A stretch of 48,507 bases of DNA, from NCBI GenBank assembly GCA_025358085.1, contig JANYKT010000036.1, positions 1-48,507 of the forward strand, in the 5' to 3' direction. The translations under genes and the position numbers were made by a program. Positions 4,202 through 37,831 of the stretch are shown here, piece by piece (position 1 is the first letter of the stretch; each line of letters starts with the position of its first letter). The stretch is from Deltaproteobacteria bacterium. GTDB taxonomy: Bacteria; Myxococcota; Myxococcia; Myxococcales; 40CM-4-68-19. Below the pieces are notes generated by a model that made no database searches, was not told where the DNA came from, and saw only the letters and a program-made list of their open reading frames with translations.

Positions 4202-6868
4202 ATGGCGACTCCCGCGGCGCGTAAATGCTTTGCCTGGGATGAGGAACCGGCGCACAAGTGGTCCTTGTCCTTACTCGTTGCCCCTGACGCCGCCGAGACT
4301 CCCGAGCAGCGGGTGCTGCTGCTCCAGGAGATCACGCAAGCCGCGGACGAAGCTCGCACGGTGCAGGATGCCCTCCGCGCCATACTCGCGCGCGTCTGCG
4401 AGCGAATGGGCTGGCAAGCCGGCCGGCTGCAATTCACCAGCGAGGCCGGCGACCTCGCGCAGCGCACGTTCTGGCATCTGGTCGACCCGGAGAAGCTGGT
4501 CAACTTCCGCTCGCTGGCCGAAGAGCGCCGCCAGCCCAACCAGACTGGCCTGCTGGCGCGCGTGGTCCGTGAAGGCAAGCCAACCTGGACCGTGTTGCCC
4601 GAAGGGCCGGAAGCAAATGCCACCGGTACGCGTGCCGTCTTCGCCTTCCCCATCCTCGCCGGCAAGCGTGTCTTCGCGGTGCTGGAGTTCTTCTCCGAGC
4701 ATGCGCACGAGCCGCGCGCGGCTCTGCTCGACACCCTCGGCATCGTTTGCGCTGGCCTCGGTGGCATCCTCCAGCGCAAGCCGGCCGAGGACGAGCTGCG
4801 CAAATCGGAGCGCGACTACCGTGCGCTCTTCGAGAGCGCGCACGATGCCATCCTGATCGTCGACCCGGTCGAGGCAATCGTCCTCGATGCGAACCGCCGC
4901 TGCTCGGAGATCTACGGCTTCTCTCGCGACGAGCTGATCGGACTGCCCCTCGACCGAGTCTGGCGGAACCCGGATCGCGCGCGCCTGCTGCAGTCGGCGC
5001 GGGGCGAGGGCGGTGACTTCGAAGCGCAGCACCTGCGCAAGGACGGCCGCGTGCTGGCCGTGGACGTTGCCGCCGGACCGGTTGAGTTCCGTGGCCGTCC
5101 CGCGGTCTGGATGTCCAACCGCGATGTCACCGACCGCGCGCGAACGCTTGCGGCACTGCGCACCAGCGAAGAGCGCTATCGGCTCCTCTTCGACGCGAGC
5201 CCCCTGCCGATGTGGGTCTTTGATCTGGAGACGCTGGTCTTCCTCGCAGTCAACGAGGCCGCGGTCGCCCGCTACGGCTATTCGCGCGAGCAATTCATGC
5301 GCATGACCGTGGCGGAGATTGGCCCCACCGAAGGCTTCGACGGCTCGGTCACCGACCACGCCGCGCGCGAGGTCACAGGCGCTGCCAGCGTCTGGCGCCA
5401 CAAGCGCGCGAGTGGTGACCTGATCGACGTCGAGATCACCTCGCACGAACTGGAATGGGGCGGAAAGCCTGCGCGGCTGGTGGTCGCGAACGACGTGACC
5501 GAGCGGCTGCGTGCCGAGCAGAAGCTGTGGCACGCGGCCTTCTACGACGGCCTCACCGGCCTGCCCAACCGCCAGCTTTTCATGGAGCGACTGGGCCAGG
5601 CGCTGGAGCGCACGCGGGGCCGCGACGCCGCCAGCTTCGCGGTGTTCTACCTCGATCTCGACCGCTTCAAGATCGTCAACGATTCGATGGGCCACCGCGC
5701 TGGAGACCAGCTGCTGGTGTCGATTGCGCGAAGGCTCGAACGTACCCGCCGCGCCGGTGACACCGTGGCGCGGCTGGGCGGCGACGAGTTCGCGGTGCTG
5801 GTCGAAGGGGTCGAAGATCCGCAGGCGGCGGGCCGCGTGGCCGAGCGCGTGCAACACGAGCTCTCGTCCCCGTTCGAGGTGAACGGGCAGGAGGTCTTTA
5901 CCAGCGCCTCGATCGGCATCGCGCTCGGGGGCTCGCCGTCGAGGCGCCCAGAGGATTTGCTGCGCGACGCCGACACGGCGATGTACCGCGCGAAGGCGCT
6001 GGGCGTCGCGCGGCACGCGGTGTTCGACATCAGCATGCATGACCATGCGGTGGCGACGCTGCAGCTCGAGAACGACCTGCGCCGTGCCATCGATCGCAGT
6101 GAGCTGCGGGTGATGTACCAGCCCATCCTGAGGCTGTTTCCAGGCCGTGCGGCGCCCACCATCGTCGGCTTCGAAGCGCTGGTCCGCTGGCAGCACCCCA
6201 AGCGCGGGCTGGTGTCCCCGGCCGAGTTCATCCCGATGGCCGAAGAGACCGGCGTCATCGGCGCGGTCGGAAAGTGGGTGCTGGCGGAAGCGTGCGGGCA
6301 GATGCGTTCGCTGCAACAGCTCTTCCCGCGGACGCCACAGCTTTCCCTCAGCGTCAATCTGTCCGGCCGGCAGATCCTGCAGCCCGGTCTGGTCGAGCAG
6401 ATCGCAGCGGTGCTGGAGAAAGCCCGGATGGATCCGCGCACGCTGCGGCTGGAGCTGACCGAGAGCGTGCTGGTCGAGAACGAGGCGGCGGCGCTGCGCT
6501 GCCTGCTGCGACTGCGTTCGCTGGGGCTGAAGCTCGCCATCGATGACTTTGGAACCGGCTACAGCTCGCTCAGCTACCTCCACCGCATGCCCATCGACGT
6601 GCTGAAGATCGACGCCTCGTTCGTGCGGACCATGGGCGTGGATGAGAAGAATCGGCGCATCGTCGAGACCGTCCTGCTGCTCGGCAAGAACCTGGGCGTC
6701 GAGGTGATCGCGGAAGGGGTCGAGACGCAGACGGAGGCGCAGACGCTGCAAGTGATGGGCTGCGAGCTGGTGCAGGGCTTCCTCTACTCGGAGCCGGTGG
6801 ACATCGACGCTATGACCACGCTGCTGCGCGAGGAGGCCGCGGCGCTGCGCGCCCTCAAGGTCGTCTGA
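4202..6868 (+). CDS. GAF-PAS-PAS-GGDEF-EAL bifunctional cyclic-di-GMP enzyme
   Basis: A sensor protein that should make and/or break cyclic di-GMP. Domain order by approximate residue: GAF 30-195, PAS 200-315, PAS 320-440, GGDEF 445-610, EAL 620-875. No transmembrane segment is seen, so it senses in the cytoplasm. The cyclase motif is intact (GGDEF at about 526) with an inhibitory RxxD site (RAGD) five residues before it. The phosphodiesterase also looks intact: EALVRW at about 658, SVNLSG, ELTES, DDFGTGYSS, LKID and AEGVET. Either activity is therefore possible. ATG 4202 was chosen; GTG 4181 gives seven more residues. It lies close behind lpxC and may be co-transcribed with it. Its last four codons overlap the proposed left end of a repeated element. 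Confidence 0.95.
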   Translation: MATPAARKCFAWDEEPAHKWSLSLLVAPDAAETPEQRVLLLQEITQAADEARTVQDALRAILARVCERMGWQAGRLQFTSEAGDLAQRTFWHLVDPEKLVNFRSLAEERRQPNQTGLLARVVREGKPTWTVLPEGPEANATGTRAVFAFPILAGKRVFAVLEFFSEHAHEPRAALLDTLGIVCAGLGGILQRKPAEDELRKSERDYRALFESAHDAILIVDPVEAIVLDANRRCSEIYGFSRDELIGLPLDRVWRNPDRARLLQSARGEGGDFEAQHLRKDGRVLAVDVAAGPVEFRGRPAVWMSNRDVTDRARTLAALRTSEERYRLLFDASPLPMWVFDLETLVFLAVNEAAVARYGYSREQFMRMTVAEIGPTEGFDGSVTDHAAREVTGAASVWRHKRASGDLIDVEITSHELEWGGKPARLVVANDVTERLRAEQKLWHAAFYDGLTGLPNRQLFMERLGQALERTRGRDAASFAVFYLDLDRFKIVNDSMGHRAGDQLLVSIARRLERTRRAGDTVARLGGDEFAVLVEGVEDPQAAGRVAERVQHELSSPFEVNGQEVFTSASIGIALGGSPSRRPEDLLRDADTAMYRAKALGVARHAVFDISMHDHAVATLQLENDLRRAIDRSELRVMYQPILRLFPGRAAPTIVGFEALVRWQHPKRGLVSPAEFIPMAEETGVIGAVGKWVLAEACGQMRSLQQLFPRTPQLSLSVNLSGRQILQPGLVEQIAAVLEKARMDPRTLRLELTESVLVENEAAALRCLLRLRSLGLKLAIDDFGTGYSSLSYLHRMPIDVLKIDASFVRTMGVDEKNRRIVETVLLLGKNLGVEVIAEGVETQTEAQTLQVMGCELVQGFLYSEPVDIDAMTTLLREEAAALRALKVV

Positions 6869-30056: not shown

Positions 30057-31454
30057 CTACTCCTTCTCGCGGTTCAGCTTTCGATAGATGGTGCGCACCG
30101 AAATCTTGAGCAGCTGCGCCGCGAGGTTCTTGTCCTCGTTGGCGTGCCGCAAAGTCTCGAGGATGACGCGCAGCTCGATTTCGTCGAGCGTGGTACCGAG
30201 CGGAACCGTGAGCGTGCGCCCTTCAATCAGTGCCTGCATGGCCTGCCCAGCGAGGCCGCCCGGCGCGCCCGCGCGCAGGTTCGGGCCGCCCGCGCGCACC
30301 TGCTCGGGCAGATCGGAGAGGTCGATCTCGGGATTCCTGGACAGCACCACCGCGCGCTCGATGGCGTTCTCCAACTCACGCACGTTGCCCGGCCACGTAT
30401 AGGCCGCGAGCGCCTGCTGCGCCGCGGCCGTCAAGCCGCGCATCGGCTTGCCGTTCTTGGCGGCGAATCGCGCGACGAAGTGGTCGGCCAGGAGCGGGAC
30501 ATCGCCTTCTCGATCGCGCAGCGGAGGTAAGACGACTTGAATGACATTGAGTCGATAAAAGAGATCTTCGCGAAACTTTCCCTCGCGGACGCGGGCGGTC
30601 AGGTCCTGATTCGTCGCGGCCACCACGCGGCAATCCACCTTGATGGCGCCGGTGCCCCCGAGCCTTTCAATCTCGCCCTCTTGCAGGACCCGCAGCAGCT
30701 TGACCTGCATGGGCAGCGTCAGCTCGCCCACTTCGTCGAGGAAGAGGGTGCCGCCATTGGCCCGCTCGAAGCGGCCCTCCTTGCGCTGGACCGCGCCGGT
30801 GAAGGCGCCGCGCTCATAGCCAAACAATTCGCTCTCGAGAATGGTCTCGGGAATGGCCGCGCAATTGATTGGAACGAAGGGCGCCTGCGCCCGGCCCGAG
30901 TGGTCGTGCACCGCGCGGGCAAAGAGTTCCTTGCCGGTGCCGCTCTCGCCCAAGAGCAAGACCGTCGCGCTCGAAGGTGCCGCCTGCGCGATGAGGTCCA
31001 GCGTGCTGCGCAGCGCCGGACTCTGACCCACGATGCTGGTCGTGCCTCCGGCGAGGCGCGCGCGCAATTGCCGGTTCTCCTGCACCAGGCGCCGCTTCTC
31101 GAGCGCCTGGGCAACGGACTTGAGCACGGCATGCCGCTTCAGCGGCTTGGTCAGGAAATCATAGGCGCCGTCCTTCATTGCCGATACCGCGGCCTCGACC
31201 GTGCCATAAGCGGTCATCAAGACAGTCTCGGCCTCCGGGGCGACCGCCTTCACGGCGCGAAGAAGCTCCTGCCCGCTCATACCCGGCATCATCAAATCGG
31301 TCAGCACCACGTCGACCGGCTCATCGCGCAAGAGCGTGAGTGCGGTCTCGCCTTTGGCCGCAAGCAACACGCGATATCCCTCGCGCGTGAAGACGCGTTC
31401 GAGCGAGTCGAGATTGGCTTGCTCGTCGTCGACGACCAGAAGGGTACCGGGCAT
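30057..31454 (-). CDS. NtrC-family sigma54-activating response regulator
   Basis: 465 residues. The receiver domain (1-120) has acidic pocket D9 D10, phospho-acceptor D53 in VLTDLMMPG and K105-region LTKPL. The AAA+ domain has GESGTGKE, the sigma54-contact loop GAFTGA, GGTLFLDEVGEL and the arginine-finger region. A Fis-type helix-turn-helix ends the protein (NLAAQLLKISVRTIYRKL). It should activate sigma54 promoters when phosphorylated. No histidine kinase is in the window, so it is an orphan here. It lies upstream of gspC on the same strand and divergent, by 67 bases, from the glycan module. ATG 31454 is the start because earlier in-frame codons add a non-family extension. Confidence 0.95.
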   Translation of the reverse strand: MPGTLLVVDDEQANLDSLERVFTREGYRVLLAAKGETALTLLRDEPVDVVLTDLMMPGMSGQELLRAVKAVAPEAETVLMTAYGTVEAAVSAMKDGAYDFLTKPLKRHAVLKSVAQALEKRRLVQENRQLRARLAGGTTSIVGQSPALRSTLDLIAQAAPSSATVLLLGESGTGKELFARAVHDHSGRAQAPFVPINCAAIPETILESELFGYERGAFTGAVQRKEGRFERANGGTLFLDEVGELTLPMQVKLLRVLQEGEIERLGGTGAIKVDCRVVAATNQDLTARVREGKFREDLFYRLNVIQVVLPPLRDREGDVPLLADHFVARFAAKNGKPMRGLTAAAQQALAAYTWPGNVRELENAIERAVVLSRNPEIDLSDLPEQVRAGGPNLRAGAPGGLAGQAMQALIEGRTLTVPLGTTLDEIELRVILETLRHANEDKNLAAQLLKISVRTIYRKLNREKE

Positions 31455-31521
31455 TGGAGGGCCGGGACTGTAAGCGGTTTTGGCTGGACAGCAAGCTCGC
31501 AGTGCGCGATTTCCCAAGGCT

Positions 31522-32580
31522 ATGTACGACGCCATCGTCGTGGGCGGCGGTTTCTTCGGCTGCAGCCTCGCGCTGATGCTGGCGCGGGGAGGCGCCCGGG
31601 TGCGGCTTCTCGAGCGCTCATCAGACCTGCTCACGCGCGCTTCGCTCAACAACCAGGCGCGAGTTCACCATGGATATCATTACCCGCGCAGCGTCCTGAC
31701 CGGCCTGCGGTCGCGGGTGAATTATCCGCGCTTCACCGAGGACTTTTCTGCGTGCATCGAAAGCGGCTTCCGTCATTACTATGCGGTAGCGGCGCGGCAA
31801 TCGCACGTGACGGCGCGGCAGTTCGAAACTTTCTGCCGGCGAATCGAGTCGCCGCTGCAGCGCGCGCCGGTGGCGGTGCGGCGCTGGTTCAATCCGGCCC
31901 TGGTTGAACAGGTGTATGAGGTCGAGGAGGTTGCCTTCGACGCTCTAAAGCTGCGCGCCGCGCTGCAATCAAGGCTCCAGACCGCGAAGGTCGAAGTGTC
32001 GCTGTCAGCCGAAGTCTCGCGCGTGGTGACGGCCGGCGTCGAACTCGCTACCGGGGAACTGCTGCTTGCGCCCCGGGTCTTCAATTGCACCTATTCCGGT
32101 TTGAATCAGCTGCTGTCGCGCTCGGGTGCAGAGCCCATTGCCCTGCGTCACGAGCTGGCCGAACTCTGCATCGTCGAAGTGCCGCCAGAACTAAAGTCTG
32201 CCGGCGTGACGGTGATGTGCGGGCCTTTCTTTTCGCTGATGCCGTTTCCGTCCTTGCAGGCACACAGCTTGAGTCACGTCCGGTATACCCCGCACTGCGC
32301 CTGGGAAGACTCTGCCGCAGCCACGGGCGTAGCGGCCGCACCGCGGCCCTCGCGATTCGAGCATATGAGGATGGACGCATTGAGATACCTCCCGGCTTTG
32401 GGCCAGCTTCGGCATCTGCAATCGATCTGGGAGACGAAGACCGTGCTGCCGTCGAGCGAGCAGAACGATTCGCGGCCCATCCTGTTCCGGCCCAGCGCGG
32501 TCTTGCCGGGCCTCGTCTCGGTGATGGGCGGCAAGCTGGACAATGTCTACGACCTGCCTGCCGAACTGGAGCGCTTGTGA
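31522..32580 (+). CDS. FAD-dependent oxidoreductase (DAO fold)
   Basis: 352 residues. The N-terminus MYDAIVVGGGFFGCSLALML is a Rossmann dinucleotide loop (VGGGFFGCSLA), followed by LLERSSDLLTRASLNNQARV and HHGYHYPRS, which resemble the DadA/DAO branch of flavoproteins. The remaining substrate-binding domain is not diagnostic. Related flavoproteins are found in surface-polysaccharide clusters, where they may oxidise a sugar or amine. No signal peptide, so cytoplasmic. Its stop overlaps the next start (GTGA), making it the first gene of a coupled operon. ATG 31522 was chosen because a TTG/ATG-containing extension upstream overlaps the divergent regulator's leader. Confidence 0.88.
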   Translation: MYDAIVVGGGFFGCSLALMLARGGARVRLLERSSDLLTRASLNNQARVHHGYHYPRSVLTGLRSRVNYPRFTEDFSACIESGFRHYYAVAARQSHVTARQFETFCRRIESPLQRAPVAVRRWFNPALVEQVYEVEEVAFDALKLRAALQSRLQTAKVEVSLSAEVSRVVTAGVELATGELLLAPRVFNCTYSGLNQLLSRSGAEPIALRHELAELCIVEVPPELKSAGVTVMCGPFFSLMPFPSLQAHSLSHVRYTPHCAWEDSAAATGVAAAPRPSRFEHMRMDALRYLPALGQLRHLQSIWETKTVLPSSEQNDSRPILFRPSAVLPGLVSVMGGKLDNVYDLPAELERL

Positions 32581-33554
32581 TCCTGTCCGCCCTCTTCGTT
32601 TCGGTGGTGTGCCGGCTGCGCGACCAGGCGGCGCTGGTCGAGCCGTTGATTGCCGAGCTGTCGAGTGTCCTCGGCGATCACTACGAGAACTATGAGATCG
32701 TACTGGTGGACGACGGGTCCGTGGACGGGACTGCTGCGAAGATCAAAGAGCTGCTGTCGCGCTTCGAATGCGTCCGCCTGTTGCGGCTCTCGCGGAAGTT
32801 TGGGGTGGACGTCGCGCTGACCGCAGGGCTGGAGAGCGCGATTGGCGACTATGTCGTCACCTTGACGCCCGGGATGGACCCGCCGGCACTGATTCCCGAG
32901 ATGATCGCGCTCGCGCAACGCGACAACGCGGCCGTCCATGGGCTGGCCGCCCGGCCCTCGCGGCCGCTCCTGCACCGCGTCGGTGCGCGCCTCTTTCATT
33001 GGGCCTGCGTGCGACTGCTCGATCTCCCGCTGCAACCCGGCGCCACCCACTTCCGCGTGCTCAGCCGGCAGGCGGTCAATGCCATCAGCGAGATCAAGGA
33101 CAACTATCGATACCTGCGCGCGTTGACGCCCTATATCGGCTACGCGACGCGGACGTTTCCTTATCAGCCCTTGCCTTCGACGCCGAAGCCCGAGAGCCTG
33201 CTGGAGGCGGTCGATACCGCCATCGCGCTGGTGGTGAGCAACTCCTCGCGGCCGCTGCGATTCGTCAGCTGGCTGGCGGTTTTGGCGAGCGCGCTGAATA
33301 TGGCCTATATCGGTTATGTGTTTCTGGTGAACGTCTTCAAGCACTCCGTCGCCGAAGGCTGGACCACGCTGTCGGTGCAGAACGCGGGAATGTTCTTCCT
33401 GCTCTTCCTCATCCTGGCGGTGGTGACCGAATACGTGGGCCGCATTTTGAACGAGACGCGCGAGCGGCCGCTCTATTACATCGCCGAGGAGGCGAACAGC
33501 TCAGTCCTGATCCCCGGGCGAGATCGCCGCAATGTGGTCACGGACTCGCAATGA
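32577..33554 (+). CDS. Membrane-associated family-2 glycosyltransferase (DPM/GtrB type) with an altered DXD motif
   Basis: 325 residues from GTG 32577, overlapping the previous stop by four bases. The N-terminal GT-A domain has the nucleotide-binding VDDGSVDGT. Two membrane segments (about 225-250 and 280-300) lie at the C-terminus, as in polyprenyl-phosphate glycosyltransferases that load a sugar onto a lipid carrier. Where the family normally has DADLQDPP, this protein has TLTPGMDPP, so the first acidic residues are lost; the second conserved acidic position is also changed (GATHFRVLS). Either a divergent subfamily with other metal ligands or reduced activity is possible. Confidence 0.88.
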   Translation: MILSALFVSVVCRLRDQAALVEPLIAELSSVLGDHYENYEIVLVDDGSVDGTAAKIKELLSRFECVRLLRLSRKFGVDVALTAGLESAIGDYVVTLTPGMDPPALIPEMIALAQRDNAAVHGLAARPSRPLLHRVGARLFHWACVRLLDLPLQPGATHFRVLSRQAVNAISEIKDNYRYLRALTPYIGYATRTFPYQPLPSTPKPESLLEAVDTAIALVVSNSSRPLRFVSWLAVLASALNMAYIGYVFLVNVFKHSVAEGWTTLSVQNAGMFFLLFLILAVVTEYVGRILNETRERPLYYIAEEANSSVLIPGRDRRNVVTDSQ

Positions 33555-34300
33555 TCCCTTCGTTCACCGTGCGGGAGTTCGCGCCCCGGCGGACGCGCTA
33601 TTGCATCATCATACCGGTGATCAACGAAGGCGAGCGCATCCGCCGCCAGCTCACGAGGATGACTTCAGGCCTCGCCGATCTCATCATATCCGACGGCGGC
33701 TCCACGGATGATTCACTCGATGATCTGCCCGCCCAGGTCCGCACCCTCCTGGTAAAGACCGGCCCGGGAAAGCTGGGCGCGCAGCTGCGGATGGGCTTCG
33801 CTTATGCGCTCGAGCAGGGATACGAAGGCCTGGTGCTGGTCGACGGCAACGACAAGGATGACGTCTCGGCCATCCCGCGCTTCATCGCGCTCCTGGAGCA
33901 GGGAATCGATTACGTGCAGGGCTCTCGCTATGCGCCGGGAGGGCAGGGCGTCAATACGCCGCTGCACCGCCACCTGGGCGTCAAGCTTCTGCATGCGCCG
34001 CTCATCTCCCTGGCGGCGCGGGTTCGATACACCGATACCACCAATGGCTTTCGCGCCTGCTCCGCGCGGCTGCTGAGCGACCCGCGCGTGGCGCCGTTGC
34101 GCGACGTCTTCATGGGATATGAGCTGCATTACTATCTGGCCATCCGCGCGGCGCGGCTGGGCTTCCGCGTAGCCGAGGTACCGGTGACCCGCAGCTACCC
34201 GGCTGCCGGTCCGGTGCCGTCCAAGCTCAGTCCAGTGCGCGGCAGCCTGACCGTCCTGCGCGCGCTGTTTGCCGCGGTCTCGGGGAGGCTGAATCCATGA
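33551..34300 (+). CDS. Soluble family-2 glycosyltransferase
   Basis: 249 residues. A GT-A fold with CIIIPVINEGERIRRQL, IISDGGSTDDS (nucleotide binding) and an intact acidic motif LVDGNDKDDVSAI, then VQGSRYAPGG and a C-terminal acceptor half with DTTNGFRACS. No membrane segment, unlike its upstream partner, so it is probably a cytoplasmic transferase acting on a lipid-linked or nucleotide-linked sugar. The ATG overlaps the previous stop by four bases (ATGA). Confidence 0.88.
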   Translation: MIPSFTVREFAPRRTRYCIIIPVINEGERIRRQLTRMTSGLADLIISDGGSTDDSLDDLPAQVRTLLVKTGPGKLGAQLRMGFAYALEQGYEGLVLVDGNDKDDVSAIPRFIALLEQGIDYVQGSRYAPGGQGVNTPLHRHLGVKLLHAPLISLAARVRYTDTTNGFRACSARLLSDPRVAPLRDVFMGYELHYYLAIRAARLGFRVAEVPVTRSYPAAGPVPSKLSPVRGSLTVLRALFAAVSGRLNP

Positions 34301-35028
34301 AGGCCCTGATCGGCAACACCGGCTTTGTCGGCGGCGCGCTGCTCAGGCAGACTGCTTTTGACGCGGTCTATGCCTCGCGCAATATCGACTCCATTCGCGG
34401 CCAGCACTTCGACCTCATCGTCTGTGCCGGCGTCTCCGCCGAGAAATGGAAAGCGAACCAGGATCCGGCCGCCGACCGACTGGCGCTGGAGCGGCTGATC
34501 GATCCGCTGCGCGAGGTGTCTTGCCAGCGCTTCGTGCTCGTCTCCACCATCGATGTCTACCAGCGGCCGCTGCTGGTGGACGAGTCTTCCCCAGCCGACG
34601 CGACGCACCCCTATGGCCGTCACCGGCGCCTGCTCGAAGAGTTCGTCCAAACGCGGTTTCCGCAAAGCTTCGTACTGCGGCTGCCGGGGTTGTTCGAGCA
34701 CGGGCTGAAGAAAAACGTCATCTTCGACCTGTTGCACGATCACCAGGTCGAGCGCATCCACCCTGACGGCGTCTATCAATACTATCCGCTTGCGTATCTC
34801 TGGACCGATATCCAGCGCTGGATACCGCTGCTGAACGTCGCCACCGAACCGATTGCGACGCGCGAGCTCTCGCTGCGCTGCTTTGGCCGCGAGCTGACGG
34901 AATATCCTGCGAGCCCGCCCGCGCGGTACGATGTCCGCACCCGGCACGCGCCTTCCGGATATCTCTACGACCGCACGACTGTCTTGCGCGAACTGCAGGA
35001 GTTTGTCGCGCGCGAGCGCGCGCTGTGA
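34297..35028 (+). CDS. NAD(P)-dependent sugar epimerase/dehydratase-like SDR
   Basis: 243 residues. The N-terminus MKALIGNTGFVGGALL is an extended-SDR nucleotide loop (GNTGFVGG), then FVLVSTIDVYQ with the catalytic Ser/Thr region. The usual YxxxK is YGRHR, so the lysine is replaced by arginine. It is shorter than typical extended SDRs (~310-340). Substrate unknown. The role is inferred from neighbours: forming or altering the sugar used by the adjacent transferases. ATG overlaps the previous stop by four bases. Confidence 0.82.
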   Translation: MKALIGNTGFVGGALLRQTAFDAVYASRNIDSIRGQHFDLIVCAGVSAEKWKANQDPAADRLALERLIDPLREVSCQRFVLVSTIDVYQRPLLVDESSPADATHPYGRHRRLLEEFVQTRFPQSFVLRLPGLFEHGLKKNVIFDLLHDHQVERIHPDGVYQYYPLAYLWTDIQRWIPLLNVATEPIATRELSLRCFGRELTEYPASPPARYDVRTRHAPSGYLYDRTTVLRELQEFVARERAL

Positions 35029-35066
35029 CCGGACCGGGAGCGCGTGTGAGCGGACCGGGAGCGCGT
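35025..35066 (+). repeat. 21-bp tandem duplication that copies a start codon
   Basis: Two 21-base units (35025-35045 and 35046-35066) are identical except one base (GTGACC versus GTGAGC). Each unit begins with GTGA, so both offer a GTG start. The protein begins M-TGPGAR-V-SGPGAR, a seven-residue repeat with the second Thr changed to Ser. Confidence 0.85.
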
Positions 35067-35879
35067 CCGGCGAAGCTGGCGGTCTCCAGCATTGCCTGGA
35101 ATCCCGCGGAAGAGGGCGCGGTCGCCGACCTGCTGGCCGCGCACGGCGTGCCTGGTGTCGAACTCGCCCCGACGAAGCTCTTTACCGGCAGCCCGCTCGA
35201 CGCGACCACCGCGCAGCTGGCCGCGGTGCGCGATTTCTGGCAATCGCGCGGCATCGAGATCGTGGCGCTGCAGGCGCTGCTGTACGGCCGCCCCGAGCTG
35301 CGCGTCTTCGACTCTTCGCGGCCGGATACGCTTGAATACCTGAAAGGCATCATCCGGCTGGGCGGCGCGCTGGGCGCGCGAGCGCTGGTGTTCGGTGCGC
35401 CGAGGAATCGCGCACGCGGGGCGCTGCCCGCCGCGGACGCCTGGTCGATCGCAATCGAGTTTTTCCACCGGCTCGGCGAAGAAGCGCGGAGCGCGGGGAC
35501 CTGTCTGTGTATCGAGCCCAATCCGATTCAATATGGCGCTGACTTCTGCACCGACTCTGTTCAGGCGCTGGCTCTGGTGCGCGCTGTCGCCTCGCCCGGC
35601 TTCGGGCTGCATCTGGACAGCGCCTGCGCGCTTCTCGCCGCGGAAGACTTTCCAGCGCGCATTGCCGCTTCGGCTCCCCTGCTGCGCCACCTGCACATCT
35701 CCGAGCCACAGCTTGCGCCGGTCGGACCGGGCGGCACCGCGGACCTGCACGCAATCGGTCTTGCCTTGCGGGGGATCGACTACCAGCACTCCGTCTCGAT
35801 TGAGATGGTGGCCGCGCCGGAGGGCGGGAATGTCGCGCGCGTCCAGACGGCGCTTTCCTACGTCCTTGAAAGGATTTGA
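35025..35879 (+). CDS. Sugar-phosphate isomerase/epimerase-like TIM-barrel protein
   Basis: 284 residues. A xylose-isomerase-like TIM barrel (AP endonuclease 2 family) with LAVSSIAWNP, VELAPTKLF, ALVFGAPRNR, CLCIEPNPIQYGADF, GLHLDSACALL and LRHLHISEPQL, where the acidic and histidine residues that should ligate metal are visible. It is likely to isomerise or epimerise a sugar or sugar phosphate. GTG 35025 overlaps the SDR stop (GTGA). A second GTG 21 bases later arises from a tandem duplication, so either could serve as start and the N-terminal GPGAR repeat may be cosmetic. Confidence 0.85.
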   Translation: MTGPGARVSGPGARPAKLAVSSIAWNPAEEGAVADLLAAHGVPGVELAPTKLFTGSPLDATTAQLAAVRDFWQSRGIEIVALQALLYGRPELRVFDSSRPDTLEYLKGIIRLGGALGARALVFGAPRNRARGALPAADAWSIAIEFFHRLGEEARSAGTCLCIEPNPIQYGADFCTDSVQALALVRAVASPGFGLHLDSACALLAAEDFPARIAASAPLLRHLHISEPQLAPVGPGGTADLHAIGLALRGIDYQHSVSIEMVAAPEGGNVARVQTALSYVLERI

Positions 35880-35883
35880 ATTG

Positions 35884-36343
35884 ATGAAACCAATCGAGGC
35901 AAAGAGCGCCCCGGCGCAAACCGGCAGCAACTATCCCGAACCGTTCCGCGCTTAGCGTCCAGGGCCGCGAGAGGCGCAGGCTTGGCGACCTTTTCGGTTT
36001 GCGCACCTTCGGAGTCAACCTCACGCGGCTCCCGCCGGGCGTGCAGTCGGCCCTCTTGCACAGCCACTCCGTGCAGGAAGAGTTCGTCTATATCCTCGAA
36101 GGCGAAGGCACCCTGATCACCGACGCAGGCGAGACGCCACTCTGCGCCGGGATGTGCATGGGCTTCTCTCCCGCGGGCGCCCCGCACCAGGTGGTTAACC
36201 GGTCTTCAGGGGACCTGGTCTTCCTTGAAGTCGGCACCCGCGAGACGGCGGACGAGGGGTCCTATCCCAACGACGACTTGAAGGTCGTGACGAACGCAGA
36301 GGGCAAGCGATTGAGCGCTCATAAGGATGGAACTCCGTATTGA
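35884..36343 (+). pseudogene. Cupin-domain gene broken by a one-base frameshift
   Basis: ATG 35884 follows a good ribosome site (AAAGGA) four bases after the TIM-barrel stop. It encodes MKPIEAKSAPAQTGSNYPEPFRA, read as MKPIEAKSAPAQTG then SNYPEPFRA, and stops at TAG 35953-35955. The rest of the cupin continues in the +1 frame from about 35954 to 36343: VQGRERRRLGDLFGLRTFGVNL, then HSHSVQEEFVYILEGEGTL and a second cupin motif. Removing one T at 35952-35953 (GCTTAGC to GCTAGC) restores a continuous 152-residue cupin of usual length with the family N-terminus YPEPFRA. A TTG at 35999 could start a truncated product. A genuine pseudogene, a sequencing error or recoding are all possible. Confidence 0.72.
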
Positions 36344-36346
36344 AAC

Positions 36347-37792
36347 TCAGCCGAACAGCGCTTCGACGAACTCATGTGGATCGAATGGCTTGAGGTCCGG
36401 GATTTTCTCGCCGACGCCGACATAACGAACCGGGATCTTCAATTCATCGCAGATACCGATGATCACACCGCCCTTGGCGGTCCCGTCGAGCTTGGTCAAG
36501 ACGAAGCCGGTCACGCCCAGCGCCTCGTGAAACTGCCGCGCCTGCTGGATTGCGTTCTGTCCATTGGTGGCGTCGACCACCAGCAAGACTTCGTGCGGCG
36601 CTCCCGGGTGCGCTTTCCCAAGCGTGCGCTTCAAGCCTTTCAATTCATCCATCAGATTTGCTTTGGTATGCAGCCGGCCCGCGGTATCGCAGAGCACCAC
36701 CTGGACGCCATCAGCCCTGGCTCTGGTGATGGCATTGAAAAGGACCGCGCCCGGATCGGAGCCGTCCTTGCCCCGCACCATAGGCACTTGCGCGCGCTCG
36801 GCCCAGACGTCCAGCTGCTCGCCCGCCGCGGCGCGGAAGGTATCTCCGGCGCCGAGCAGTACGCTGCGCCCGCCGATCTTCAGGCGCGCCGCGAGCTTTC
36901 CAATCGTGGTGGTCTTTCCCGTTCCATTGACGCCCACCACCATCACCACCTGTGGCGCGGCGACGCCGGGCGCGAGTTCTGGCAGCCCGCCGTGACCGGC
37001 CTGCGAAAGAGTGGCGCCGAGCGAAAGAATGCGCTCGATCTCCTCGCGCAGGGCCGCCTTGACTTTGGATAAGTCCGACAGCTCCTTGCGCTTGAGCCGC
37101 TCGCGCACCGACTCCAGCAGCGCCGTCGCGGTGCGCACTCCGACATCGGCGGAGAAGAGGATCTCTTCCAGTTCGCCCAGCGCGGCCTCGTCCAGCTCCT
37201 TGCCGGTGCCGAGCAGCGCATTGAGCCGCGCCATGAAACCGCCGCGCGTCTTGGCGAGGCCCTCGGACAGGGTGCGGCCGGTCTCCAGATCGGCCAGCTT
37301 CTGCCGCCGGTCGGCCTCGATGCGCCGCGCCTCTTCCGCCTGCGCCAACAGCTGCGCGCGGGCCTCTGCCTCGGCTTGTTCTCGCGCCGCGGCCTCGGCC
37401 TGCCGACGCAGCTTCTCGACGGTCTCCTGGCTCTTGCGCTGCTCGTATTCGAGCTTGCGGCGGGCGTCCGACAGGTCGCGCTGGTAGCGCGCAATCTCGG
37501 CCCGCGCGGCGGCGGAATTGCCGGCCGCCTGCGCTGCCGCCAGCGACTTCTCGGCCGCCTCGACCGCGCCACGAGCCTTCTCCTCGCGCGCGAGGCGCTC
37601 GGCGGGCGTATGGACTTCCGGCGCCGCGATCTCGAGGCGCTCCTTCGGCGCTGCCTCCGGCAATTCTGCTGGCGGCGCCTTCGCCGGGGGACGGACAAGG
37701 AATTGCGCAAGCAGCGCGAAGAGGATCGCCAGCGCCACGAGCAACGCGACGACGAGTGCGATCTGTTGAGCGGTAACGGCGGCTAGGAGCAT
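36347..37792 (-). CDS. ftsY: Signal recognition particle receptor FtsY with N-terminal membrane anchor and coiled coil
   Basis: 481 residues from ATG 37792. FtsY is the SRP-receptor GTPase for co-translational membrane targeting. The N-terminus MLLAAVTAQQIALVVALLVALAIL is a membrane segment (TAQQIALVVALLVALAI), followed by a ~130-residue Ala/Glu/Arg/Gln-rich coiled coil. The NG domain then has GVNGTGKTT, the DTFRAAAGEQL box, DTAGRLHTKANLM and TKLDGTAKGG, all intact, ending FDPHEFVEALFG. ATG 37807 and TTG 37831 are earlier starts, but the putative promoter overlaps them. The stop lies three bases from the cupin stop on the other strand. Confidence 0.95.
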   Translation of the reverse strand: MLLAAVTAQQIALVVALLVALAILFALLAQFLVRPPAKAPPAELPEAAPKERLEIAAPEVHTPAERLAREEKARGAVEAAEKSLAAAQAAGNSAAARAEIARYQRDLSDARRKLEYEQRKSQETVEKLRRQAEAAAREQAEAEARAQLLAQAEEARRIEADRRQKLADLETGRTLSEGLAKTRGGFMARLNALLGTGKELDEAALGELEEILFSADVGVRTATALLESVRERLKRKELSDLSKVKAALREEIERILSLGATLSQAGHGGLPELAPGVAAPQVVMVVGVNGTGKTTTIGKLAARLKIGGRSVLLGAGDTFRAAAGEQLDVWAERAQVPMVRGKDGSDPGAVLFNAITRARADGVQVVLCDTAGRLHTKANLMDELKGLKRTLGKAHPGAPHEVLLVVDATNGQNAIQQARQFHEALGVTGFVLTKLDGTAKGGVIIGICDELKIPVRYVGVGEKIPDLKPFDPHEFVEALFG

Positions 37793-37802
37793 GAGGCCGC
37801 GC

Positions 37803-37831
37803 ACCATAGGGTGCGCGCAACGCACCTTCAA
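37803..37831 (-). promoter_or_regulatory. Possible promoter and palindrome in front of ftsY
   Basis: On the minus strand TTGAAG (37831-37826), a 17-base spacer and TATGGT (37808-37803) resemble a sigma70 promoter. Around it, GCGCACC-ATAG-GGTGCGC (37799-37816) is a perfect 7-bp inverted repeat. The arrangement echoes the promoter at 11282-11316. If used, the mRNA for the ATG at 37792 would have only a few leader bases. Confidence 0.35.

Follow-up and report, generated by a model that had tools for sequence, protein, structure and literature searches.

A conserved five-gene block beside ftsY in a myxobacterial genome is a candidate module for editing a lipid-linked sugar

We analysed a stretch of 48,507 nucleotides (hereafter the window) from the Deltaproteobacteria bacterium assembly GCA_025358085.1, a Myxococcota genome of 5.4 Mb in 217 contigs, in which the window is contig JANYKT010000036.1 (C54 in our numbering). 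A match to the GspC_delta model also points to Myxococcota. Five + strand genes (31522-35879) occupy the space between an NtrC-type regulator gene, which is divergent from them, and ftsY, which is convergent. The five are called FAD, GTA, GTB, SDR (short-chain dehydrogenase/reductase) and TIM below. The locus contains the following features:

31522-32580, + strand: FAD, a DAO-family flavin oxidoreductase of 352 amino acids (Pfam DAO PF01266, E 6e-19)
32577-33554, + strand: GTA, a GtrB-like GT2 glycosyltransferase with two hydrophobic segments near the C-terminus (phmmer to GtrB sll0501, 5eke, E 7e-32)
33551-34300, + strand: GTB, a soluble DPMS/AglJ/PpgS-like GT2 protein with no hydrophobic segments (TIGR04182 AglJ, E 1e-16; DPMS 5mlz, E 1.5e-6)
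34297-35028, + strand: SDR, short and of the extended type by predicted structure and invariant residues, with Y-x3-R for Y-x3-K
35025-35879, + strand: TIM, a xylose-isomerase-like TIM barrel of the ketose 3-epimerase kind (PF01261, E 3e-20)
35884-36343, + strand: a frame-broken cupin gene, judged to lie outside the module (Cupin_2, E 2e-15, in 35999-36340)
30057-31454, - strand: NtrC-type sigma-54 response regulator, the divergent left flank, with 67 bases from its start to the FAD start
36347-37831, - strand: ftsY, the convergent right flank (TIGR00064 ftsY, E 2e-100)

From GTA to TIM, each start overlaps the previous stop by 4 bases, giving four overlaps in all. The original prediction had joined a FAD oxidoreductase, two glycosyltransferases, an SDR, a TIM-barrel isomerase and a cupin into one coupled block. 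For the first five genes, the overlaps and the Pfam and NCBIfam families bear this out. The further suggestion that such a block could make, oxidise and attach an unusual sugar is in keeping with the predicted enzyme families. A promoter scan of 31300-36600 found 0 promoters against 0.6 expected and is uninformative.

The cupin gene fared differently. Its ATG (35884) lies 4 bases past the TIM stop, and the frame opened there closes 23 codons on at a TAG (35953-35955). The cupin domain, which runs to 36343, is in a different frame from this ATG; the gene is thus frame-broken as assembled, through either a real mutation or an assembly error. Among 137 loci, a cupin match was present only in the window's own two (L001 and L115). 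Cupin relatives (33-56% identity) occurred in 10 of 13 other genomes, always off the contig with the ftsY junction or the module. Because the gene is frame-broken and stands beside no relative's module, we rejected it as a sixth member and left it out.

We scanned a genome collection with the SDR alignment and one peptide pattern, which gave 421 pattern matches and 401 confirmed relatives. The best 80 of the 401 by SDR match were kept as named loci, and shares among them are therefore no census. All five families were found together in 59 of the 80, more than chance would give, so the co-occurrence in relatives on which the original prediction had staked its coupled module does exist. Near SDR, FAD was found in 72 loci, TIM in 72, GTA in 66 and GTB in 62. 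Among loci with full flanks, 42 of 51 held all five families, and nine were without one or more (L035, L037, L053, L062, L063, L064, L070, L097 and L109). Judged by record titles, about 11 phylum-level groups contribute complete sets, many of these in metagenome-assembled genomes: Bacillota, Bacteroidota, Cyanobacteria, Acidobacteria, Planctomycetes, Kiritimatiellae, Chloroflexi, Actinobacteria, Patescibacteria, Myxococcota and Proteobacteria. The order FAD-GTA-GTB-SDR-TIM on one strand was seen in 10 of the 80 loci and in genomes G132 and G135; the Myxococcota-named record L091 has the same gene order as the window.

Similar linkage was found elsewhere. Of 72,556 plasmid records, 12 carried SDR relatives and 16 carried FAD relatives; the FAD match was partial in four of the 16, and the other 12, with at least 80% coverage, were the SDR records. 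All 10 plasmid records with GTB relatives at 1e-30 were among the 12 SDR records. Across the phylum (195 genomes), 6 genomes carried SDR (1e-25), 5 carried FAD (1e-40) and 4 carried both; two had SDR alone and one had a FAD fragment at a contig end. GTA and GTB were paired in 60 of the 80 named loci, with one alone in 8 and neither in 12 (Fisher P=2e-8, relatedness ignored). Across 56 sets, both co-vary with the FAD-SDR-TIM triad at r 0.84-0.95, a figure not corrected for shared ancestry. That the five families form a real conserved gene module is thus well supported. The exact set named in the original prediction is conserved as far as these five families go, and the cupin is not among them.

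Two Planctomycetes-named loci (L062 4455-11626 and L097 4662-9658) contain only FAD and SDR of the five families. In both, Pfam identifies a MutY-like gene near the two genes; a gene for an NAD-dependent DNA ligase is also near, recognised by Pfam in L062 and by eye in L097. The very small Psychrobacter plasmid pA22P4 (L031, 10.8 kb) carries the full set with an SMR gene and a gene for a membrane protein; the gene table omits the plasmid's GTA gene, which lies at about 5407-6357.

GTA is closest to the undecaprenyl phosphate (Und-P)-glucose synthase GtrB and aligns to sll0501 GtrB over residues 7-304 of 325. It has the layout of a GT-A domain with two transmembrane helices, with hydrophobic segments from 232 and 263 in a simple scan. 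The metal-holding DxD of GtrB is D94 and D96, and changing its catalytic acid D157 to Asn abolished GtrB activity (PMC4728340). For this and the following comparisons, we aligned the window proteins with homologues covering at least 80% of the query from 85 loci and dropped all others (77 rows for FAD, 65 for GTA, 66 for GTB, 83 for SDR and 70 for TIM). Asp at both DxD positions was found in 0 of 65 GTA homologues. The window GTA reads TPGM-DPP in this region, with T at the first DxD position; the second Asp is present in 2 of 65, and an out-of-register D-x-D string in 5 of 65. At the D157 site, read by eye from the alignment, the window has H158, and 6 of 65 sequences have D. A canonical DxD was found in only 3 other GT2 frames of the loci, which makes for a small control. 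In a Sagittula and a Cereibacter plasmid, the GTA homologue is still more degenerate and has kept its place (profile E 4e-30 and 6e-29).

GTB is closest to DPMS, AglJ and PpgS, with 60.8 bits to AglJ TIGR04182 against a cut-off of 325. Its motifs D98-G-N-x-K-D103 and D162-T-T-x-G-x-R168 are invariant in 66 of 66 sequences. Since GTA has lost the DxD pair and mostly the D157 residue, while GTB keeps its motifs and the two pair in most loci, we propose that GTA may be a pseudo-enzyme, a membrane platform for the soluble GTB, which would be the catalyst. The lipid-carrier glycosyltransferase of the original prediction is therefore right in part: GTA is GtrB-like with two C-terminal segments, but residues required in GtrB are lost, and GTB is the better catalyst candidate.

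The remaining three proteins were compared with known enzymes by profile and by predicted structure. For the FAD model (AlphaFold pLDDT 90.5), the VIA structure comparison placed Escherichia coli GlpD on top (Z 29.7, root-mean-square deviation (rmsd) 2.9, 336 aligned), tied with glycine oxidase, a proline dehydrogenase and others. At 1e-6, the FAD profile had a single PDB match, the L-alpha-glycerophosphate oxidase 4x9m (E 8e-10). Only the fold appears to be shared with glycerol-3-phosphate oxidases and dehydrogenases, as FAD reaches 18.7 bits in NF033460 against a cut-off of 460. Glycerophosphate oxidase oxidises a secondary alcohol in a phosphate ester, and we propose that FAD may oxidise a ring hydroxyl to a ketone. 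The SDR model (pLDDT 97.1) was closest to MoeE5 (Z 23.1, rmsd 2.7, 238 aligned), tied with GalE. Its predicted fold is that of extended enzymes of the nucleoside diphosphate (NDP)-sugar type, with MoeE5, GalE and RMD nearest. S83, Y106, R110, K139 and N140 are invariant in 83 of 83 SDR sequences, as are G6, G9 and G12 of the GxxGxxG cofactor motif. We propose that SDR may reduce the keto sugar.

TIM matches D-psicose, D-tagatose and L-ribulose 3-epimerases in the PDB (best E 4e-6). The metal ligands of ketose 3-epimerases are Glu-Asp-His-Glu, and TIM has this set as E164, D198, H224 and E260, invariant in 70 of 70 sequences. Its scores lie below the curated epimerase cut-offs (IolO 39.2 and psicose epimerase 31.6 bits versus 300). 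From these sequence features, we propose that TIM may epimerise the carbon beside a ketone. A different outcome, in which the triad makes another modified sugar or a cyclitol (keto, dehydrated, ring-contracted or isomerised) and no carbon is inverted, we regard as quite unlikely. Xylose-isomerase-like TIM barrels do include isomerases and dehydratases, the YxxxR of SDR is atypical, and the FAD fold ties with amine oxidases; against this, the PDB and NCBIfam entries that TIM matches best are 3-epimerases or epimerases, albeit far below the NCBIfam cut-offs.

The family matches of TIM, FAD and SDR suit a series in which a sugar is oxidised, epimerised at the next carbon and reduced. We tentatively favour a reading, a little short of probable in our judgement, in which the five-gene cassette makes a rare epimerised hexose while the sugar is on polyprenyl phosphate. 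GTB, held at the membrane by the degenerate GTA, would load polyprenyl phosphate with a hexose taken from a nucleotide sugar. FAD would then oxidise one secondary hydroxyl of the hexose to a ketone, TIM, as a metal-dependent enzyme of the ketose 3-epimerase type, would invert the neighbouring carbon, and SDR would reduce the ketone. The product might then be turned outwards by a flippase, a role that SMR or GtrA would have in relatives, and placed on a surface glycan by a GT-C enzyme. In favour of this reading are the joint occurrence of the five families, their linkage in plasmids, the likeness of GTA to GtrB and of GTB to DPMS/AglJ/PpgS, the SMR, GtrA and large membrane protein genes of relatives, the metal ligands of TIM and the nearest profile match of FAD; DprE1/DprE2 and ORF13 (both below) are precedents. 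The analysis itself establishes the linkage of the genes, their families, the predicted folds of FAD and SDR, the conserved metal site of TIM and the absence of the DxD pair from GTA, whereas each chemical step, its place in the series, a substrate carried on lipid, the acceptor, and what GTA and the membrane proteins do are inferred.

Neither a flippase nor a GT-C gene was found within the window gene block, as the original prediction had stated for the flippase. The lack is particular to the window copy: near the module in many relatives lie an SMR or GtrA gene and a gene for a large membrane protein. SMR-like small membrane genes were present in 36 of the 80 named loci and on the Psychrobacter plasmid, and GtrA genes in 2 further named loci and two plasmids. 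By a simple scan with a loose criterion, 49 of 60 complete sets (86 loci) had an unassigned frame with at least 7 hydrophobic segments within 3.5 kb. In G132, a frame of about 1029 amino acids with 11 hydrophobic segments lies directly upstream of FAD and has relatives in 12 of 85 loci. Neither this protein nor its L057 relative had a Pfam match; the plasmid fusion in L034 matches PMT_2. From its shape only, the family is GT-C-like.

Several observations weigh against lipid-linked editing by the cassette. We know of no activity for any member of the module. In 83 of 83 sequences, the catalytic pair of SDR is YxxxR, not YxxxK, and with Arg in place of the catalytic Lys a reductase activity is uncertain. 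The first DxD Asp of GTA is retained in 44 of 65 homologues, so a 'dead' GTA is unproven, and GTB has N at the second DxD position, the second Asp in DPMS, in 66 of 66. Of 193 positions that are at least 95% conserved, the window module itself deviates at 6, and its SDR is without 4 residues that the other SDRs compared have. In searches run without a positive control, neither the G132 membrane protein nor the SMR gene had a match in the window genome. The genome's sole GtrA domain lies away from the module in an 809-amino-acid frame (L157 3895-6321, contig C55), which by eye starts like a CDP-alcohol phosphatidyltransferase.

The remaining points of this kind concern the triad on its own. In five loci (L032, L070, L077, L109 and L110, the last two from Rhizobiaceae), some with short or disrupted stretches, the triad is present and both GTA and GTB are missing. 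Among 18 viral loci, many cut by contig ends, FAD was present in 13, TIM in 7 and all three in 6. One of the six, L029 2238-10088 (IMGVR_UViG_3300034012_002457), encodes a portal protein (PF06381) and divergent SDR and TIM, with FAD on the opposite strand, near a weak GT4 match below the cut-off; the others are L014, L016, L017, L020 and L021. One phage record, MT839812, carries both SDR and FAD. With GTA and GTB missing, a nucleotide sugar suits these loci and may be the substrate there. Extended to the whole module, this becomes an unlikely yet serious alternative: the same oxidise-epimerise-reduce triad would act on a cytosolic nucleotide sugar, and GTA and GTB would just use the finished donor. 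The triad in Rhizobiaceae and phage contigs speaks for it, as does the predicted SDR fold with its NDP-sugar neighbours. However, loci with only the triad hold divergent members (their FAD is 23-35% identical to that of the window, in some cases over a short stretch), and GTA and GTB of the main group form pairs that co-vary with the triad, as described above.

The history of the locus was followed at the ftsY/ntrC junction in 12 genomes of the window's family, the window included. G006 and G008, in which the contig ends at ftsY, and G010, in which ftsY had no match, were not judged. In five genomes (G001, G002, G003, G005 and G009) the junction is empty, with a gap of 28-140 nt. It measures about 790 nt in G011 and about 701 nt in G007, which hold the SDR gene alone, versus 4.9 kb in the window. 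The lone SDR copies lie at L008 7578-8321 (G011) and L010 2605-3273 (G007), and the G007 copy is without an internal stretch. In G004 the junction contains FAD-GTA-GTB-SDR, running to the contig end and 55-67% identical to the window's genes. Among the 12 genomes, FAD was found in 2 and TIM in 1. The simplest reading is that an ancestral cassette was lost with SDR left behind; repeated gain at one site is the alternative.

Such losses raise the question of whether the window copy is itself a relic that makes nothing, the module being functional elsewhere. The empty and SDR-only junctions, the frame-broken cupin next to the module and the lack of a flippase or GT-C gene found nearby all point this way. 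We nevertheless consider it very unlikely: the five frames are open, with a third-position GC content of 0.78-0.84 versus 0.80-0.82 in four neighbouring genes, the four genes shared with G004 keep the identity given above, and the window differs at only those 6 of 193 strongly conserved positions.

In G135, the module lies downstream of a GHMP kinase gene (Pfam) and heptose-like genes (by eye). A heptose substrate was rejected as a general reading, as the GHMP kinase and SIS-type genes of G135 had no relative at 1e-8 in 85 other loci. Of 85 loci, 18 contain SDRs of a mixed GalE/RmlB-like cluster, and some loci have RmlD-like genes; such genes are in keeping with ordinary polysaccharide clusters and do not tell which sugar is made. 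In its widest form, our reading would make the cassette a general bacterial pathway in which hexoses are edited on polyprenyl phosphate. A split synthase, with soluble catalytic GTB docked on a catalytically dead GtrB anchored in the membrane, would pass its product to a soluble oxidase, a 3-epimerase and a reductase, and rare hexoses would result for the surface glycans of about 11 phyla; the three editing enzymes are carried by phages too. We hold this wider claim to be doubtful.

Among known systems, DprE1/DprE2 converts mycobacterial decaprenyl-P-ribose to arabinose and works with Rv3789 and AftA. As in the proposed module, a flavin oxidase and an SDR stand by a small flippase-type gene and a GT-C gene, and epimerisation is by redox on polyprenyl phosphate. 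In contrast, FAD is a DAO protein, whereas DprE1 is of the vanillyl-alcohol-oxidase type; none of the 7 Pfam families listed for FAD was DprE1-like, and DAO PF01266 was best. The module also adds TIM and would start from a GT2-made hexose rather than a ribose derived from phosphoribosyl pyrophosphate. GtrABC and Arn (ArnC, ArnE/F, ArnT) resemble the module in the GtrB/ArnC-like protein and in the SMR or GtrA gene plus large membrane protein of many relatives. However, in the module the GtrB-like protein has no DxD pair and has a soluble GT2 for a partner, three further enzymes (FAD, TIM and SDR) are present, and the window block lacks the flippase and GT-C gene of a GtrABC-type cluster. DPM1/DPM2-DPM3 and Ppm1/Ppm2 combine a soluble catalytic subunit with a separate membrane partner, as we propose for GTB and GTA, but the membrane partner of the module is itself a degenerate glycosyltransferase.

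Three-component pentofuranose systems (Citrobacter ORF12-15, GT136) have a polyprenyl-P donor, a flippase, a GT-C enzyme and an auxiliary sugar-setting epimerase in common with the proposed scheme, and their authors expect ORF13 to act after transfer to Und-P (PMC11127046). These systems use a DPPRS-like synthase, a MATE flippase and one YxxxK SDR for xylofuranose (Xylf), whereas the module has GT2 proteins and three redox or isomerase enzymes. No description of the module was found in the open-access PMC literature, the only text searched. Kelly and others write that they are unaware of other epimerases in O-antigen side-chain glycosylation beyond their own systems and DprE1/E2 (PMC11127046); if the favoured reading is right, the module would thus be a set of candidates. 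Because it lacks a defining feature of each known system tested, we class it with lipid-linked sugar modification as a variant and do not count it as a member of a known system. If the favoured reading is true, the module would be a hexose counterpart to DprE1/DprE2 and would offer a genetic marker for rare sugars on the surface glycans of many bacteria, and GTA would be a natural example of a glycosyltransferase that has become a membrane platform.

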